Below, one piece after another: positions 11,301 to 50,814 of a stretch of 64,000 bases of DNA. The stretch lies in the NCBI GenBank assembly GCA_016214785.1, contig JACRNV010000059.1:17924-81923 (forward strand), read 5' to 3'. Position 1 is the stretch's first letter; each line of letters opens with the position of its first letter. The notes under the pieces were generated by a model. The model saw nothing but the letters and a program-made list of their open reading frames with translations. It was not told the DNA's origin and made no database searches. The stretch comes from Methanobacteriota archaeon (lineage in GTDB: Archaea > Thermoplasmatota > Thermoplasmata > SG8-5 > JACRNV01). Made by a program: the position numbers and the translations under genes.

Positions 11301-14300
11301 CGGGCAACACTAGCACAATAAATGTCAAGGTGCTCGACGGCGCGGGTGCGAATGTCAGCGGCGCCACGGTGAACATGGCAATGTCAAACAGCGTACTGGT
11401 CCAAGCTGACGCGGCGACCAAGACGACCAACGCAACCGGCGACGCGAACTTCACCGTCACATGCATTGCGAACGGCAGCGCAGACCTCGCACTCGGATTC
11501 AGCATAGCCAACAGCATCGGCATCTCGCAGGGCTACAACCTGAAGGTCAACAAGACCGTATCTCCGATACCGTACTCGATCATCGACGAGCTGGTCTACG
11601 GGCCTGCGGTCGGAGGCAGCAAGTACTGGCACAACCTGGCGAGCACGCCGGTAGTCAACGCGACGGTCTGGAAGTGGAACGCGGGGACATGGACGGCCCT
11701 CGTCGCAGCCACCGACTACACCATCAACCTCGGAACGGGCAACATATCGTACATCAACGAGCTTGCGACAGGGGACAGCGTCTATGCGTGGTACAACTAC
11801 TCGACTGTAGTGACGAATGAAACCGTCTTTGACACCCCTGCTGGTGGAGACCAGAATGGGGCACTCGATCACACGATGATTCTGGATGCAACCATATACA
11901 GAGAAAATAACGGCTCTGCCACTTGGGCACTGCTCACATCCCCCGCAGATTACACCATTGTCCCTGAAACGGGAGCTATCTCATTGACCGCACCAACGGC
12001 AGCAGGCGATGTCATCTACGCATACTACAACTACTCGACACCGGTCAACAACGAATCTGTCTTCGCCGGCCCCGCGGTGGGCGGCGAGACGGGCAACGTT
12101 GGCAGCCTCGACCACGTGCCAGTCGTCAACGCGACAGTCACGAAGCAGAACGGCGTCGCGAGGTTGCCAATGGCATCACCAGCAGACTACGGGCTCAACC
12201 TGACAACCGGTGCCTTAAATGTCGTCAACCCGCTCGTGTCGGGCGACAACATCATGGCCAACTACACCTACAACATCGCCCACCACAGGCTCAACGTGAC
12301 GGGCGTCACATCCTACTACGTTGACTCCGATCCCTGGAGCACGACTCCGACAACCTCCACGATAACCGTCAGGCTGAACGACACAGAGGGACACGCGCAG
12401 GCCTTTAAGACGGTCAGCGCCGTAACAACCGCCACGAACATCGGCATCGAGCCAAGCAACACCACAGATGTAACTGGGGTAGCAACATTCCACGTGACAT
12501 CCGCCTCCGACACTCCAGGGACAGCCTTCGTCTACTTCAAGGTGGAAAACACCTCAGGACTGACAAACAGCGTCGCAATCTACAACGGCGGCCCGATTAG
12601 GGGATACGCGGCGGACATCGACTTCGCGTTCATCTCGGAGCACTTGAGCGCCGGGACTGTCAACGTCACAGTCTACGACGAGACAGGCCAGCCGGCGGCC
12701 AACACCTTCGTCAACATGTATATCCCGCTGACCCCATATGGACAGCCAGCCAACTTCGACAACGGCAACTGGAGGACATTACCAAGCACAGCAAACCCCG
12801 ATTTGCCTACATACTATGGCGCGCCTGAATTGGACTTGTCCGAGGAATACGATGGCTTTGGAAGCTGGATTGATGAGTATACCGATGTCAACGGGGTTGT
12901 AAGCACGCCCATCTCGCTGGCTTCCTTCGTCGGCGACTCGGTCATCGAGCTCAACGTGGCAATAAACAGCGACGTCCCGAAGTTCGCGACCGGCGCCATA
13001 AACTACTGGTCAGGGCAGGGGATGACCGATTGGGAGGAGCAATTCTGGATACTGGCGCCTAACTCCCTGACGGAGAACATCTCAAGCGACTTCAACCCAT
13101 CTGCAGACCCCGTCATAGTCGATACTTCAATTGTAAAGCGCGGCCCCGTTGCCGTGCTGACCGAGGCCACGATGAACCTGACCTACCTGTCGATGGCGAA
13201 CCCGCTCGGTACCTTGAACCTGACTTACCAGGACGCTAACGGGCCATTGGCCAAAAAAACTGTTCTCAACGAATCACTGATAATCAATGCTGGTAGCGGA
13301 ATAAAGACACTTAAGACAAAACACCACGATATACTCGACTTAACATTGCTCATTCAGAACACAAGCGGTTGGACACAATTGACCAACCCAGTAGGCTATT
13401 CATTCAACGATGCAACTGGCGCAATAACATTAGTGGCCAACCTTACAGTGGGGGACAATGTCTACGCCCACTATAATTACACCACGAACATTATGCTGTC
13501 GAAGTACACATCCAAGCCGAAGAGGCTGACGCGCATGGTGTTACCAGCTTCCGGTGTCATGACATATGTCTACAATGACACGGCCAAATTCGCGTGGTGG
13601 ACCGACCCGGAGCCATTGACCATCTTGAACTATCCGGGCGCCTCGGCATGGACTACTGGCATAGGAGAGCAGGACTCGGTCCTGCCGTTCACGGCAATAT
13701 TGACCGACCGGAGCTACCCGTCAGGATATTGGACTGACTACGCCACATTCCCGTCGACATTCTTATTCCCGTACATCGCCCAGGGCACCGCGGGCAAGAA
13801 CATCCTCGCATCCATCGGCGCAGGCACGCCCACAAGAGCGCCAGTAGCGCCTTGCGTCGTCGCGGGCGACAACGCAACGCTGACCGTGAGCCTTAAGGAC
13901 GAGTACGGTCTGCCGGTCAGCGGGGCGAATGTATCCTACGAGGGAAAAGTGCTCAATTCCACCAATGCTAGTGGGGTTTCGGTCGTCTCAGTGCCAACCC
14001 CCTATCCGGCATACGTTGGAGCCTACGAGATACAGCTGACCATACAGAAGGGGACGATGGCGTCCACCGAGAGCTACTTCGTCAACCTCGTGGACCCGGA
14101 GCTCTTCCTGTCGGTCGAGTACTACAACCTCAATGCCACAGCGCCAACTGTGAACAAGCCGTTCAACGTAACCTTCACGGCACTCAACAACTGGTCATAC
14201 CACGGCTTCGCGTACTTCGACCTGATAGTCGACGGCGCGGTCGTCAACACGCAGAGGGTCAACCTGACTGGCATGGAGACGAAGAACGTCACCTTCGCCC

Positions 14301-31013: not shown

Positions 31014-31808
31014 ATGCAATGGAGCCCCGTGCATGACGGGGCATTGAGCGCGACAGTGGAAGAGCGAATATTGATTTACCTCTCGGACTACAAGACCGAG
31101 GAGAGGTACGAGTACCCCCCGACCCTTACCCAACGGGCAATTGCCGACGGCGCAGGCATCCAGCAGAAGCACCTCTCGCGCCACCTGAAGGAGCTCATGG
31201 GGCAGGGCCTCATCGAGGAGCGGGCCGCCAAGGTCGAGGGTATGAAGCAGCGCATGAAGGTCTATGTCCCGACGCCGCAGGGGTTCGAGCGCGCCAGGGA
31301 GCTGCGCGAGAACTTCGGAAAGAAGGTAGTCACGATCGAGCTCGACGGGAAGCGCATCGAGATGATGATATCCCAGATAGACAAGGCGACCTCGAGGCAC
31401 CTGAAGCTCTCCGACATAGTCAGGCACGCGCTGGAGAGCCACATCCTCGACCTGAAGGCCCTCGAGGAGGTCGAGGAGAGCAGGAGGCGCCAGGAGGACG
31501 AGAAGGAGCGCAAGGTCGAGCTCTACAAGGAAGCTCTGGAGACGGCATGGCGCAGCGGCATCCTCACCCCCTCGGAGCGCGTGCTCATCAACGCACTGAG
31601 CGAGCACATCGGGATGACGGCCGAGGAGTGCACGAGGATAGAGGAGGAGTTCATGAAGGGCGCGGACTTCGTCAGCCCCGACAAGCGCGAGCTGTACGAC
31701 GAGCTGCGAGCGATCGCCTACAGCATGGGGGAGCCGCCGAAAGTCGCGAAGGAGATGCTCGCGGCGCTGAGGAAGAGGATGGGAATCCCGGAAGACACAG
31801 TCTGCTAA
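31014..31808 (+). CDS. Winged-helix/MarR-like DNA-binding protein
   Basis: LTQRAIADGAGIQQKHLSRHLKELMGQGLIEERAAKVEGMKQRMKVYVPTPQGFERA helix-turn-helix and wing. Confidence 0.65.
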   Translation: MQWSPVHDGALSATVEERILIYLSDYKTEERYEYPPTLTQRAIADGAGIQQKHLSRHLKELMGQGLIEERAAKVEGMKQRMKVYVPTPQGFERARELRENFGKKVVTIELDGKRIEMMISQIDKATSRHLKLSDIVRHALESHILDLKALEEVEESRRRQEDEKERKVELYKEALETAWRSGILTPSERVLINALSEHIGMTAEECTRIEEEFMKGADFVSPDKRELYDELRAIAYSMGEPPKVAKEMLAALRKRMGIPEDTVC

Positions 31809-31924
31809 ATAAGGGCATTCTTCGCCGTTGATTGCTTAAAATCGAATTCCCTTATCAACCCTGACGATGTCTGTTTTTCAGGGCATCCTTCGTCGATATA
31901 CGCTATGAGTCGAATGCCCTTATT
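31808..31924. repeat. 117-bp inverted-repeat element, copy A
   Basis: Terminal AATAAGGGCATTC (31808-31820) / GAATGCCCTTATT (31912-31924); internal CGAATTCCCTTAT and CAGGGCATCCTTCG; same architecture as 50656-50771. Confidence 0.8.
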
Positions 31925-31926
31925 CC

Positions 31927-33600
31927 TTACTGAAATCGTAAATGCTTCATCAACGACTGCACTATAGAAGGGTCGTCCAGCGCCGCCTTCATCTCATCAA
32001 TATCCTTGAACGGCCTCCTGCGCGCAAGCCTCACCGCCCTCTTCCTCCCTATCCCGGGCAGTGCTTCGAGCGCTCCCATGGGAGCATGGTTGACGTCGAG
32101 CGGCGTCTCGACCGCCGTGACGCTTCGCGGCCCGTGCCCGACGACGAGCGCGTCCGAGAACCTGTTCAGCCCCGCCCTGTACGGGAACGAAACGAGGATT
32201 GGATAGGAGCCTATCTGGCGCCCGTACGCGCAGCCGCCGATTTGCACCTCCATATAGACGTCCCTCAGCACCCCTCCACTCGGCGCGACCCTGGCCAGCA
32301 TCGGCGCGTCTATCTCCGTGCGCACGCGCTCCTTGAACCTCCTGAAGGCTCCGTAGTTCCTGTCCCCCGTGGCGAACTCGCGCACGGTGGGCGCGACCTG
32401 CCTGACGTTGATGCGCCGCAGGAGGAGGCCTTCGTCCAGGACGCCCTTCAGGAAGCGGTAGTTCAGGTCGAACGTCCGTGCCGTCTCGCCGTCCAGCCCG
32501 GCGAGAATGTTGATGCCCGGCAGCAGCTTAGGCAGGCCGTTCTCGCCTCGTTCCGTCCCGGCCTCGTTGACGATGCGCACCGCCGCGAGGACCTGCTCCG
32601 GCGTAGCATTAAGATTGTTCGCCACGATGACGGCGGGGTCGGCGCTCTCCATGCCGAAGGCGACGACGTTGCCGGACGTGCAGTGCCCGACCATGATGCG
32701 CGTGGCCTCCGCGGCCTCCTCCGGGTGCTCGGCTATGACCGCCGGGTTGGCGTTGTCCAGGTGCAGGACCTTGAGATTGGGCGCCGCTCTCCGCACGCCT
32801 GCGAGCAGCGCCTTCAAGGCCTTCACGTTTGGCCTCGGCGTCTCGGTCTTTCCCACGCCCCCTGCCATGTAGCTGTAGATGCAGGCCTGCCCGCCGAGGC
32901 GGAAGTTCACCACGCCCTGCGCGTGAAGGGCTTTCACCTCCCCCGCAACTTCCTCGGGCGGCCTGAAGTATGGCTTCCCGTGCGAGGGCTCGATGCAGAA
33001 GCCGCAGCCGCCGGCGAAGTACCGCACACAGCCCCTCGAGGTGTCGAGCTCGGCGATGAGCGGCTCGGGGAAGTCGGGGTGATGGCGCACGGCCTCGGCG
33101 CCAGAGACAGACCAGTCCCTCCATTCCTCGGGCGTGCGCGCCCGGTTCCGGGCCTCGCCATTCTTCATGAAGTCAAAGATGTAGGCATCCAAGTCGCTTC
33201 GAGCAATATGCTGGAAGTGGGATTGTATTTCGTCGCTTTGGCCGAATTTGACACCCGCCCCTCCTATGACGGTCACCCATCTGCGGATGCGCGCGATTTC
33301 GCACAGCTCGCGCGCGCTCGCCGGCATCCCCCGGAGGTACTTTCCGGGCACGACGGCGCCCATGAGGGCCACAAGCAGGTCCGCCTCCGGGATGGCAGTG
33401 CCGCTGCGCAACTGGTCTATCGTGATGTATCTCGCCTCCGCCCCGGCGGCCCTCAGCGCGCCGTAGGCGTACCTGGCCTGCGGCGAGACGTATGGCGGCA
33501 CCCCCAGGGACGCGGGCTCGTCCACGTAGCCGTCCAGCAGCAGCGCGGTCGTCTCTCCCTTCTTTTTATTCAACGCCTGGGCATGCAGCGCGCGGTACAT
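31927..33600 (-). CDS. Radical SAM protein with C-terminal helix-hairpin-helix (COG1031-like)
   Basis: ELDTSRGCVRYFAGGCGFCIEPSHGKPYFR (CxxxxxxxCxxC-like cluster), LPGINILAGLDGET, C-terminal LEALPGIGRKRAVRLARRRPF. Confidence 0.8.
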   Translation of the reverse strand: MYRALHAQALNKKKGETTALLLDGYVDEPASLGVPPYVSPQARYAYGALRAAGAEARYITIDQLRSGTAIPEADLLVALMGAVVPGKYLRGMPASARELCEIARIRRWVTVIGGAGVKFGQSDEIQSHFQHIARSDLDAYIFDFMKNGEARNRARTPEEWRDWSVSGAEAVRHHPDFPEPLIAELDTSRGCVRYFAGGCGFCIEPSHGKPYFRPPEEVAGEVKALHAQGVVNFRLGGQACIYSYMAGGVGKTETPRPNVKALKALLAGVRRAAPNLKVLHLDNANPAVIAEHPEEAAEATRIMVGHCTSGNVVAFGMESADPAVIVANNLNATPEQVLAAVRIVNEAGTERGENGLPKLLPGINILAGLDGETARTFDLNYRFLKGVLDEGLLLRRINVRQVAPTVREFATGDRNYGAFRRFKERVRTEIDAPMLARVAPSGGVLRDVYMEVQIGGCAYGRQIGSYPILVSFPYRAGLNRFSDALVVGHGPRSVTAVETPLDVNHAPMGALEALPGIGRKRAVRLARRRPFKDIDEMKAALDDPSIVQSLMKHLRFQ

Positions 33601-34850: not shown

Positions 34851-35303
34851 TTATGTCGTGCGAATCTTGCAATAGCCGACTCTCGCACCCGTTTGTTTCC
34901 AGAAAATATAGAGCTCGTAGTTCGTCCCTGGCAGGGCGGTTATATTGAACACATCGCCAGTTGTGAGTCTGCCGCCACCGTCTCCGTCGATGAATGTCAG
35001 ATTTCCAGCAGTGCCCGGTGTAAGAGTCTCCAACGAACTTGCATTATCTTTCGTATTGTTGATAAAGAGATAGACTTTGTACGAGCTTAATGGCTCATCT
35101 CTGTTTACGGCTACATTTATCTTGCTCATCTCAGCGGAATTGGAGGTCAACATAACATATGGCTCTCCGCCTCCGGCACCGCTCATGTAGCCGCTTACCA
35201 TCACGTACAGTACGGCGGCCAGAACGACAGTTATCGCGACCATAAGGATGGTTGCGATGACCGGCGATACCCCCTCCCGCTCCTTAATCCACTTGAGCCT
35301 CAT
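34851..35303 (-). CDS. Archaeal type IV pilin-like protein
   Basis: REGVSPVIATILMVAITVVLAAVLYVMVSGYMSG class III signal/hydrophobic N-terminus. Confidence 0.85.
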   Translation of the reverse strand: MRLKWIKEREGVSPVIATILMVAITVVLAAVLYVMVSGYMSGAGGGEPYVMLTSNSAEMSKINVAVNRDEPLSSYKVYLFINNTKDNASSLETLTPGTAGNLTFIDGDGGGRLTTGDVFNITALPGTNYELYIFWKQTGARVGYCKIRTT

Positions 35304-35423
35304 GCCACCTATATCACAGATTTGATATATAACTATTCTGATGTCGGGAAAAAAGATTCTCGTCGAAACGTAAAAAATGAAAAGATAGAAAGGGATTTAA
35401 TGTCTTGGGCAGTAGTCGGTTCT

Positions 35424-35873
35424 CTAGGTCGTCCACTTGACGGTACCGACCTTGGCGCCGCTCGCTACCCAGTAGATATTCAACTCGTATGTTGTTCCAG
35501 GTACGCACGTGATGTAAACTTTATCGCCAGTGGTTAGCTTGCCGCCTGTGTCGACGTCAACGAATTTCAGACTGCCACTCGTTCCATCCGCAATCGGGTT
35601 CATCGTGCTTTGGGTCGTTGTGTTCGCCAGCAAGATTAGCTTGTAGCTGGACAGCGCTTCTGCCCTGCTGGGGGCGCTCTCAACTGACCAAGTCGTTGCG
35701 TTGACCGAAGTCGCAGCCGTAAACGTGACGTACGGCTCTCCGCCTCCGCCACCGCTCATGTAGCCGCTTACCATCACGTACAGCACTGCGGCCAACACTA
35801 CGGTAATCGCCACCATCAGGATGGTTGCGATAACTGGCGAGACACCATCGTTCTTTTTCCATATTCTCTTCAT
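35424..35873 (-). CDS. Archaeal type IV pilin-like protein (paralog)
   Basis: KNDGVSPVIATILMVAITVVLAAVLYVMVSGYMSG; ATG at 35873 preceded by AAGGAGG. Confidence 0.85.
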   Translation of the reverse strand: MKRIWKKNDGVSPVIATILMVAITVVLAAVLYVMVSGYMSGGGGGEPYVTFTAATSVNATTWSVESAPSRAEALSSYKLILLANTTTQSTMNPIADGTSGSLKFVDVDTGGKLTTGDKVYITCVPGTTYELNIYWVASGAKVGTVKWTT

Positions 35874-35887
35874 GTTGTGTCCTCCTT

Positions 35888-35938
35888 GTAGGCGTTTGCC
35901 TACTGAATGTGCATGCACTTTCCACCTTTATATATCTT
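35888..35938 (-). promoter_or_regulatory. Pilin promoter/leader: TATA box, palindrome and 5' UTR hairpin
   Basis: Minus strand: ATATATAAAGG, then GTGCATGCAC palindrome (35909-35918), then GTAGGC-AAAC-GCCTAC hairpin just before the AAGGAGG ribosome-binding site. Confidence 0.5.
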
Positions 35939-49715: not shown

Positions 49716-50678
49716 ATGGGCAAGGCTCCCATCGTAGGCCACCACGGCGTCGCGCCGGGCGAGAGGGCCATCGAGCAGCTTCTGGACGCCGGAATAGTCA
49801 ACGTCGACAAGCCAAAGGGGCCGTCGAGCCATCAGGTCACGGCGTGGACGCGCGACATCTTCGGCGCCGAGAAGGCGGGCCACCTCGGCACGCTGGACCC
49901 GGGCGTCACCGGCGTGCTGCTTGTTGGGCTCGGCCGCGCGGTCCGGGGGCTGGACGCGCTCCTGCTCAGCGACAAAGAATACGTGTGCCTCATGCACCTG
50001 CACCAGGAAGTGCCGAAGCAGAAGCTCCATGACACCTTCAAAATATTCGTCGGGGAGATCTTCCAGACGCCGCCGCTGCGCTCGGCCGTCAAGCGCCAGC
50101 GGCGCTCGCGAACGATATACGAGATCGAGGTCCTCGAGATTGCTGGCAGGAGTGTCCTCTTCCGCGTCCGGTGCGAGTCCGGCACTTACATTCGTACCTT
50201 ATGCGTCGACGTCGGGGAGGCGCTGGGAGTGGGCGCGAACATGCGCGAGCTCCGGCGCACTATGTCGGCCGGGTTTTCCGAGAAGGACTCCCATCCGCTT
50301 CAGGAGGTCAAGGACGCCTGGCAGGCCTGGAAGCAGTCCGGTGACGACAAGGCGCTGCGCAACATCCTCCTGCCGATGGAGACGCTCTTCGAGCGCATGC
50401 CCAAGGTGACGATAAAGGACAGCGCCGTCGACGCCATCTGCCACGGCGCGAGCCTGGCCGTCGTCGGCGTCACGCGCGCCGACGCCAGCATCGCGTCGGG
50501 GGGCATGGTCGCGATGCTGACGGCGAAGGGCGAGGCGATAGCCCTCGGGCGCGCGATGATGAACGCCGAGGGGATGGCCAAGACGGAAGAGGGGATTGCA
50601 GTCAAAGTCGAGCGCGTGCTGATGCAGCCGGGCACTTACCCTCGTATGTGGAAGGATAAGGGCATTCTCCCGAAGTAA
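49716..50678 (+). CDS. cbf5: Archaeal Cbf5 / TruB-family tRNA/rRNA pseudouridine synthase
   Basis: NVDKPKGPSSHQVTAW, GHLGTLDPGVTGVLLVGLGRA, RVRCESGTYIRTLCVDVGEALG. Confidence 0.95.
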   Translation: MGKAPIVGHHGVAPGERAIEQLLDAGIVNVDKPKGPSSHQVTAWTRDIFGAEKAGHLGTLDPGVTGVLLVGLGRAVRGLDALLLSDKEYVCLMHLHQEVPKQKLHDTFKIFVGEIFQTPPLRSAVKRQRRSRTIYEIEVLEIAGRSVLFRVRCESGTYIRTLCVDVGEALGVGANMRELRRTMSAGFSEKDSHPLQEVKDAWQAWKQSGDDKALRNILLPMETLFERMPKVTIKDSAVDAICHGASLAVVGVTRADASIASGGMVAMLTAKGEAIALGRAMMNAEGMAKTEEGIAVKVERVLMQPGTYPRMWKDKGILPK

Positions 50679-50771
50679 AATACTGGGAATCGAATTCCCT
50701 TATCAACCCGGACAGTGTTCGTTAATCGGGCATTCTCTATTGTGTATCTACTTCAAGTCGAACGCCCTTAC
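50656..50771. repeat. 116-bp inverted-repeat element, copy B
   Basis: ATAAGGGCATTC at left end (inside cbf5 3' coding end), GAACGCCCTTACT at right end; 22-bp block AATCGAATTCCCTTATCAACCC identical to copy A. Confidence 0.8.
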
Positions 50772-50814
50772 TTCGAGTATAAATATCTCCCTCACTTTAG
50801 GTGTTTAGGTCATC

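Follow-up and report, generated by a model that had tools for sequence, protein, structure and literature searches.

A family of imperfect two-hairpin repeats, often abutting stop codons, in a single archaeal genome: a probable analogue of REP/BIME

Introduction

To our knowledge, nearly all descriptions of REP/BIME systems come from bacteria, where RAYT transposases are thought to spread them. The repeat family presented here, found in an archaeal genome, resembles the bacterial REP/BIME of the GTAG and CGTC super-families in consisting of short imperfect intergenic palindromes, present many times per genome, associated in head-to-head pairs and mosaics, confined to a single lineage and often lying just downstream of genes (PMC3733652). 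It differs from them by longer hairpins, namely 46-50 nt with loops of about 20 nt, by a fixed C.T mismatch, by an archaeal host without RAYT and by hairpin feet that coincide with stop codons. Besides, the unpaired GTAG or CGTC tag is absent from the foot, where the 5' flank is variable or a stop codon and the 3' flank reads TCAACCC, TCACCCC or GGACCCC.

Regarding REPINs and their RAYT (PMC3116915, PMC2817692, PMC6006769), the likeness lies in an inverted-hairpin doublet with a linker, about 115 bp in all, which resembles a non-autonomous replicating unit, whereas no RAYT-class transposase flanked by repeats is present here and the single Y1 gene is IS200-like. Intergenic palindromic elements of archaeal genomes have also been collected by RepRanger, where stem-loop criteria give about 1,000-2,000 'REPs' per archaeal genome (PMC12306157); in contrast, homology, covariation and mosaic structure are what define the family described here. 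MITEs are likewise small intergenic repeats, and inverted ends do occur in some of the copies, but terminal repeats are not kept as a pair here, target duplication is not consistent and no parent transposon was found.

An archaeal family devoid of RAYT and locked to stop codons raises the questions of which enzyme spreads such repeats and of whether gene ends are targeted as such or selection has produced the pattern. With half of the clusters on or near a stop codon, the family bears on how such repeats spread or act.

The locus and copies A and B

The host genome amounts to 2.18 Mb in 67 contigs and is about 92% complete. The window, i.e. the whole stretch of 64,000 nucleotides that was analysed, carries genes for archaeal type IV pilins and for a Cbf5-type TruB/PUA/DKCLD protein, by which the host is recognised as an archaeon, together with copies A and B of the repeat, whose features are as follows (HP1 and HP2 being the two hairpins of the unit, CM the covariance model).

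31806..31808, + strand: TAA stop of the wHTH gene; its last base is also the first of copy A
31808..31924, + strand: copy A, repeat unit HP1 - linker - inverted HP2 (CM score 113.6 bits)
31809..31855, + strand: HP1 of copy A, ATAAGGG-(C.T mismatch)-ATTC ... GAAT-CCCTTAT, a covarying stem
31856..31879, + strand: linker of copy A with the second C tract, CAACCCTGACGATGTCTGTTTTTC; the proposed CCCTGA/TCAGGG stem is unsupported across copies
31880..31920, + strand: HP2 of copy A, AGGGCAT ... ATGCCCT, inverted with respect to HP1; its outer arm runs on to 31924
31927..31929, - strand: radical-SAM stop codon (convergent gene), separated by 2 nt from the far end of copy A
50655..50772, + strand: copy B, repeat unit at the 3' end of the cbf5/truB-like gene (106.3 bits)
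50655..50704, + strand: HP1 of copy B, GATAAGGG-(C.T)-ATTCTCCC ... GGGAATCGAAT-CCCTTATC (z -4.7)
50676..50678, + strand: TAA in the HP1 loop of copy B, present stop of the cbf5/truB-like gene, whose native end seems lost

At 31808-31924, the first-pass annotation had described a 117-bp element with a perfect 13-bp terminal inverted repeat, and the sequence reads exactly so, from AATAAGGGCATTC to GAATGCCCTTATT. Its location between the convergent ends of the wHTH and radical-SAM genes, beginning in the stop codon of the former, is likewise confirmed from the coordinates, the 5' end being the last base of the TAA and the 3' end falling 2 nt short of the radical-SAM gene end. Allowing up to 2 mismatches, the window contains AATAAGGGCATTC 7 times, where 0.67 would be expected (0/100 shuffles). 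Matches to Rfam models were to tRNA and 5S rRNA, plus one below threshold, none of them on the element, and the U-tract pattern of a terminator is absent at copy A.

Structure of the repeat unit

The unit is made of two inverted hairpins and a linker, rather than of one long stem. Across 13 full copies, 99.0% of the stem cells of HP1 (10 pairs) and HP2 (6 pairs) are paired against 91.4% in shuffles, and covariation supports the stems, both partners having changed in 5 pairs, a number that is 0 or 1 in slid controls. Among 28 matches, with an alignment fitted to the structure, 36 double-changed cells were counted against 9.4 in shuffles; the number of pairs with a double change, 5 against 3.9 in shuffles, is not unusual. 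The related inner arms pointed out in the first-pass annotation are present in the sequence and, of the two folds offered there, it is the pair of tandem hairpins that this 13-copy covariation backs. The other fold, one long stem closed by the 13-bp ends, does not stand, as it is 82.1% paired in the 13 copies against 80.8% in shuffles and shows no covariation. Minimum-energy folding of copy A alone favours this outer stem. Because the outer stem pairs no better than shuffles, the perfect terminal repeat of copy A is best read as the coincidence of two similar arms. As for a third stem said to pass from CCCTGA/TCAGGG in copy A to CCCG/CGGG in copy B, both forms are indeed there, but the T-A to G-C change that they suggested fails across the 13 copies, in which this stem, though true of A and B, is 78.9% paired against 79.3% in shuffles.

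In a mechanical scan, hairpins of the HP1 type measure 46-50 nt, with an outer stem of 7-8 bp, one mismatch and an inner stem of 4-5 bp. The mismatch is fixed as C.T or T.C (A.G or G.A on the other strand), lies 7-8 bp above the foot in nearly all hairpins of the family and stays constant while the arms vary (TAAGGG, TAGGGG, CAAGGGG, CTAGGGG, CTAAGGA); in some CAAGGGG hairpins, C.C or a one-base bulge takes its place. Wobble pairs are few, and deviating pairs were too few for a strand comparison of G.U with A.C to measure a bias, so that pairing is unable to separate RNA from DNA. Nor does the covariation of the hairpins decide for the repeated structured RNA that the first-pass annotation also considered, because a DNA palindrome would covary too.

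Mosaics and subtypes

Related hairpins with other arms join head-to-head into intergenic mosaics of alternating orientation, some of them with multiple hairpins (e.g. 23104-23419 on contig C1 and 7136-7603 on contig C41). After a forward hairpin, the second C tract matches the arm, as in CCCTTA-TCAACCC, CCCCTA-TCACCCC, CCCCTTG-GACCCC and TCCTTAG-CACCTCCC, while hairpins of opposite orientation join tail to tail via linkers, e.g. GACCCC...AAAGGATTT or CACCTCCCAAAGTTGAACACATCCGC. The ends of the copies vary between TAGGGG, CAAGGGG and GTGGAATTC.

A second module, found at L077:1320-1620 and in its relatives, associates a CTAAGGATAATC hairpin with CACCTCCCAAAGTTGAACACATCCGCTTTCCGTGATGAAATCC and contains GTGATGA, which resembles a C box. 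Its conservation is much higher, reaching 95% over 190 bp, and it is possibly a younger and more active subtype.

Family size and distribution

When copy A was searched against the host genome with blastn, 18 matches were obtained at E<=0.003, and the covariance model R1, built from the 13 full copies, gave 46 matches at E<=0.01 with stricter filters and a few more with laxer ones; the search for further copies suggested in the first-pass annotation thus returned many of them in the host. The full copies are 72-80% alike in blastn, which gives no sign of recent movement for this subtype. A neighbouring mosaic used as blastn query gave 60 overlapping matches. Once merged, all matches fall into at least 46 clusters between genes of the 2.18-Mb genome, and no called gene contains one. 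Within about 446 kb sampled without bias, the family was the sole repeat component with more than 2 intergenic members, and it links 17 intergenic regions.

Outside the host, R1 had no match in 60 relatives, 12 genomes of the order included, nor in 299 other genomes of the class, and the mosaic module was likewise not found in relatives. A degenerate pattern had no occurrence in GTDB or IMG/VR contigs and blastn gave no match in phages and plasmids, in collections that may omit the host's own records. Around three neighbouring copies on contig C41, only housekeeping genes were seen and no gene-carrying element.

Position relative to genes

With flanking genes called by a simple codon-usage gene finder, a hairpin foot falls within -5 to +4 nt of a gene 3' end at 25 of the 51 facing ends, in 23 of 46 clusters, with a median of 1 nt. 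The share expected for that range is 3.7% under a uniform intergenic model (p about 6e-21) and 4.6% if the 50 nt before starts are forbidden (p about 5e-19), both p-values presuming that insertions are independent and that genes were called correctly. In about a dozen cases, the TAA or TAG of the foot is itself the stop codon; for CAAGGGG feet, which have no stop inside, the stop typically lies 0-3 nt ahead. On the 5' side of genes, the median distance is 56 nt and no copy touches a start codon. Convergent gaps are enriched, accounting for 14 of 37 clusters but for 49 of the 302 gaps (Fisher p=0.003), and the unit can have either end turned to a gene.

Hairpins at stops were also considered as general terminators in this genome and rejected as such, being found for 16 of 303 genes, a number equal to that at control offsets.

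At two genes, the coding sequence runs into the repeat. The Cbf5 protein ends here in YPRMWK-DKGILPK*, the stop lying in the loop of copy B, against YPKMWKTKQ*, YPKLWKRKN* or YPKLWKRKV* in relatives, so that copy B contributes DKGILPK to the C-terminal end of the cbf5/truB-like protein. A cysteine-synthase-like gene also runs into an element (...STDLFQ-NKGHSSLQSSL*), as read from what we take to be its native end. The native stop has seemingly been lost from both genes. Docking would reflect either a target preference or selection at the RNA level, and the balance leans to the former because native stops were lost and a small fraction of genes is affected.

Insertion footprints and candidate mobilisers

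At C42:13892-14005, a 58-bp imperfect direct repeat, 19/19 identical in its 3' part, abuts both ends of the unit exactly and is a repeat of the start of the downstream gene (locus about 13834-14063), which indicates that the 114-bp unit is there a discrete thing, inserted or duplicated into place. In the other 45 of 46 clusters, no significant flanking duplication was detected. Empty sites could not be compared with the radical-SAM gene as anchor, since orthologues in relatives are only about 50% identical and no relative is thus close enough.

The sole Y1 transposase gene of the genome is IS200-like, intact-looking and encodes 152 aa (C18:16371-16718; L026:1429-1887); it lacks a TnpB partner, and hairpins are not obvious at its flanks. 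No hairpin of the family was found in its flanks, an absence that is not final in a genome about 92% complete, and no TnpB zinc-ribbon match was obtained in the genome. Since the IS200-type subclass of Y1 transposases is the only one reported for Archaea (PMC6006769), a RAYT would have come as a surprise. A RAYT-type REPtron was considered and discarded, given that the sole Y1 gene lacks flanking family repeats. Three DDE_Tnp_1 genes are also present, and the ends of the repeat family are absent at the two examined; the full-length IS sharing the ends of the element, which the first-pass annotation proposed to look for, did not appear among the transposases examined, i.e. the Y1 gene and two of the three DDE genes.

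Nature of the family and alternative explanations

The family is probably a genome-specific archaeal set of REP/BIME-like, non-autonomous, imperfect DNA palindromes. The analogy with REP/BIME, which was among the early suggestions for this element, is borne out by the many intergenic copies, the fixed mismatch, the head-to-head mosaics and the restriction to one genome. The family works like REP but is not taken for a proven member, since neither the tag nor a flanking RAYT was found when tested for. Copies would have arisen via duplicative spread of the non-autonomous unit, which may be recognised through its hairpin, the mismatch supplying polarity. The likeliest guess for the mobiliser, and a tentative one, is a HuH nuclease of the Y1 type, acting in trans or now lost. 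Copies sit at the stop codon of the preceding gene, presumably by preference for that target; the transcript's 3' UTR would then start as a hairpin, with possible side effects on termination, on the release of ribosomes or on mRNA decay. It is conceivable, if doubtful, that a mobile hairpin has its insertion directed to stop codons, with a foot (TAA/TAG+GGG) that serves as the new stop or abuts it; the element would thereby spread in the genome by landing exactly where genes end. If true, REP-like DNA would have a mode of targeting not described before, possibly tied to the mRNA 3' end.

Against a reading in terms of DNA insertion, the precise position at stops could reflect RNA-level selection instead of insertion preference. 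A selected RNA element of the 3' UTR, i.e. a stop-codon hairpin that would serve to terminate transcription, to release or stall ribosomes or to protect the 3' end of the mRNA, and that spread by gene conversion, would account for feet at stops in 25/51 facing gene ends, for copies keeping off starts, for the over-representation of convergent gaps and for hairpins that covary, and REPs of E. coli are reported to stall ribosomes when a stop lies within 15 nt (PMC12306157). Yet a small share of genes has a copy, stop hairpins are not general in the genome, the family is missing from relatives, some insertions ruined the original end of a gene, as where Cbf5 runs on into copy B, the unit can face a gene with either of its ends, and copy A is without the U-tract pattern; such an RNA element is rather unlikely.

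As for mobile DNA of other kinds, a MITE, that is a non-autonomous derivative of a cut-and-paste DDE transposon with 13-bp terminal inverted repeats, had also been put forward early on; the perfect inverted repeat of copy A, the three DDE_Tnp_1 genes and the one 58-bp flanking duplication speak for it. However, the stem that these repeats would form pairs as in shuffles and without covariation, the ends differ between copies, the other 45 clusters have no significant flanking duplication and no transposase examined, the two DDE genes included, is bounded by such ends, which leaves a MITE highly improbable. Y1 TnpA enzymes recognise imperfect ssDNA hairpins with a mismatch, and in IS605 the hairpins of the two ends are on the same strand. 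The fixed-mismatch hairpins of the family would suit the former property, and the intact-looking IS200-like TnpA gene and the lack of general target duplication also fit a PATE-like miniature element derived from IS200/IS605 and mobilised by the Y1 TnpA of this genome; against this, HP1 and HP2 are inverted, unlike those ends, and neither a family hairpin beside tnpA nor a TnpB zinc ribbon was found, so such an origin is very unlikely. A REP/BIME-like palindrome thus remains the preferred reading.

Other observations in the genome

The tRNA gene at L018:287-444 spans 158 bases, exceeding the model by about 87, and probably contains an intron. In the window, two tandem archaeal type IV pilin genes at 34851-35918 share 85% identical DNA over 131 bp and are, judging from this identity, a recent duplication.
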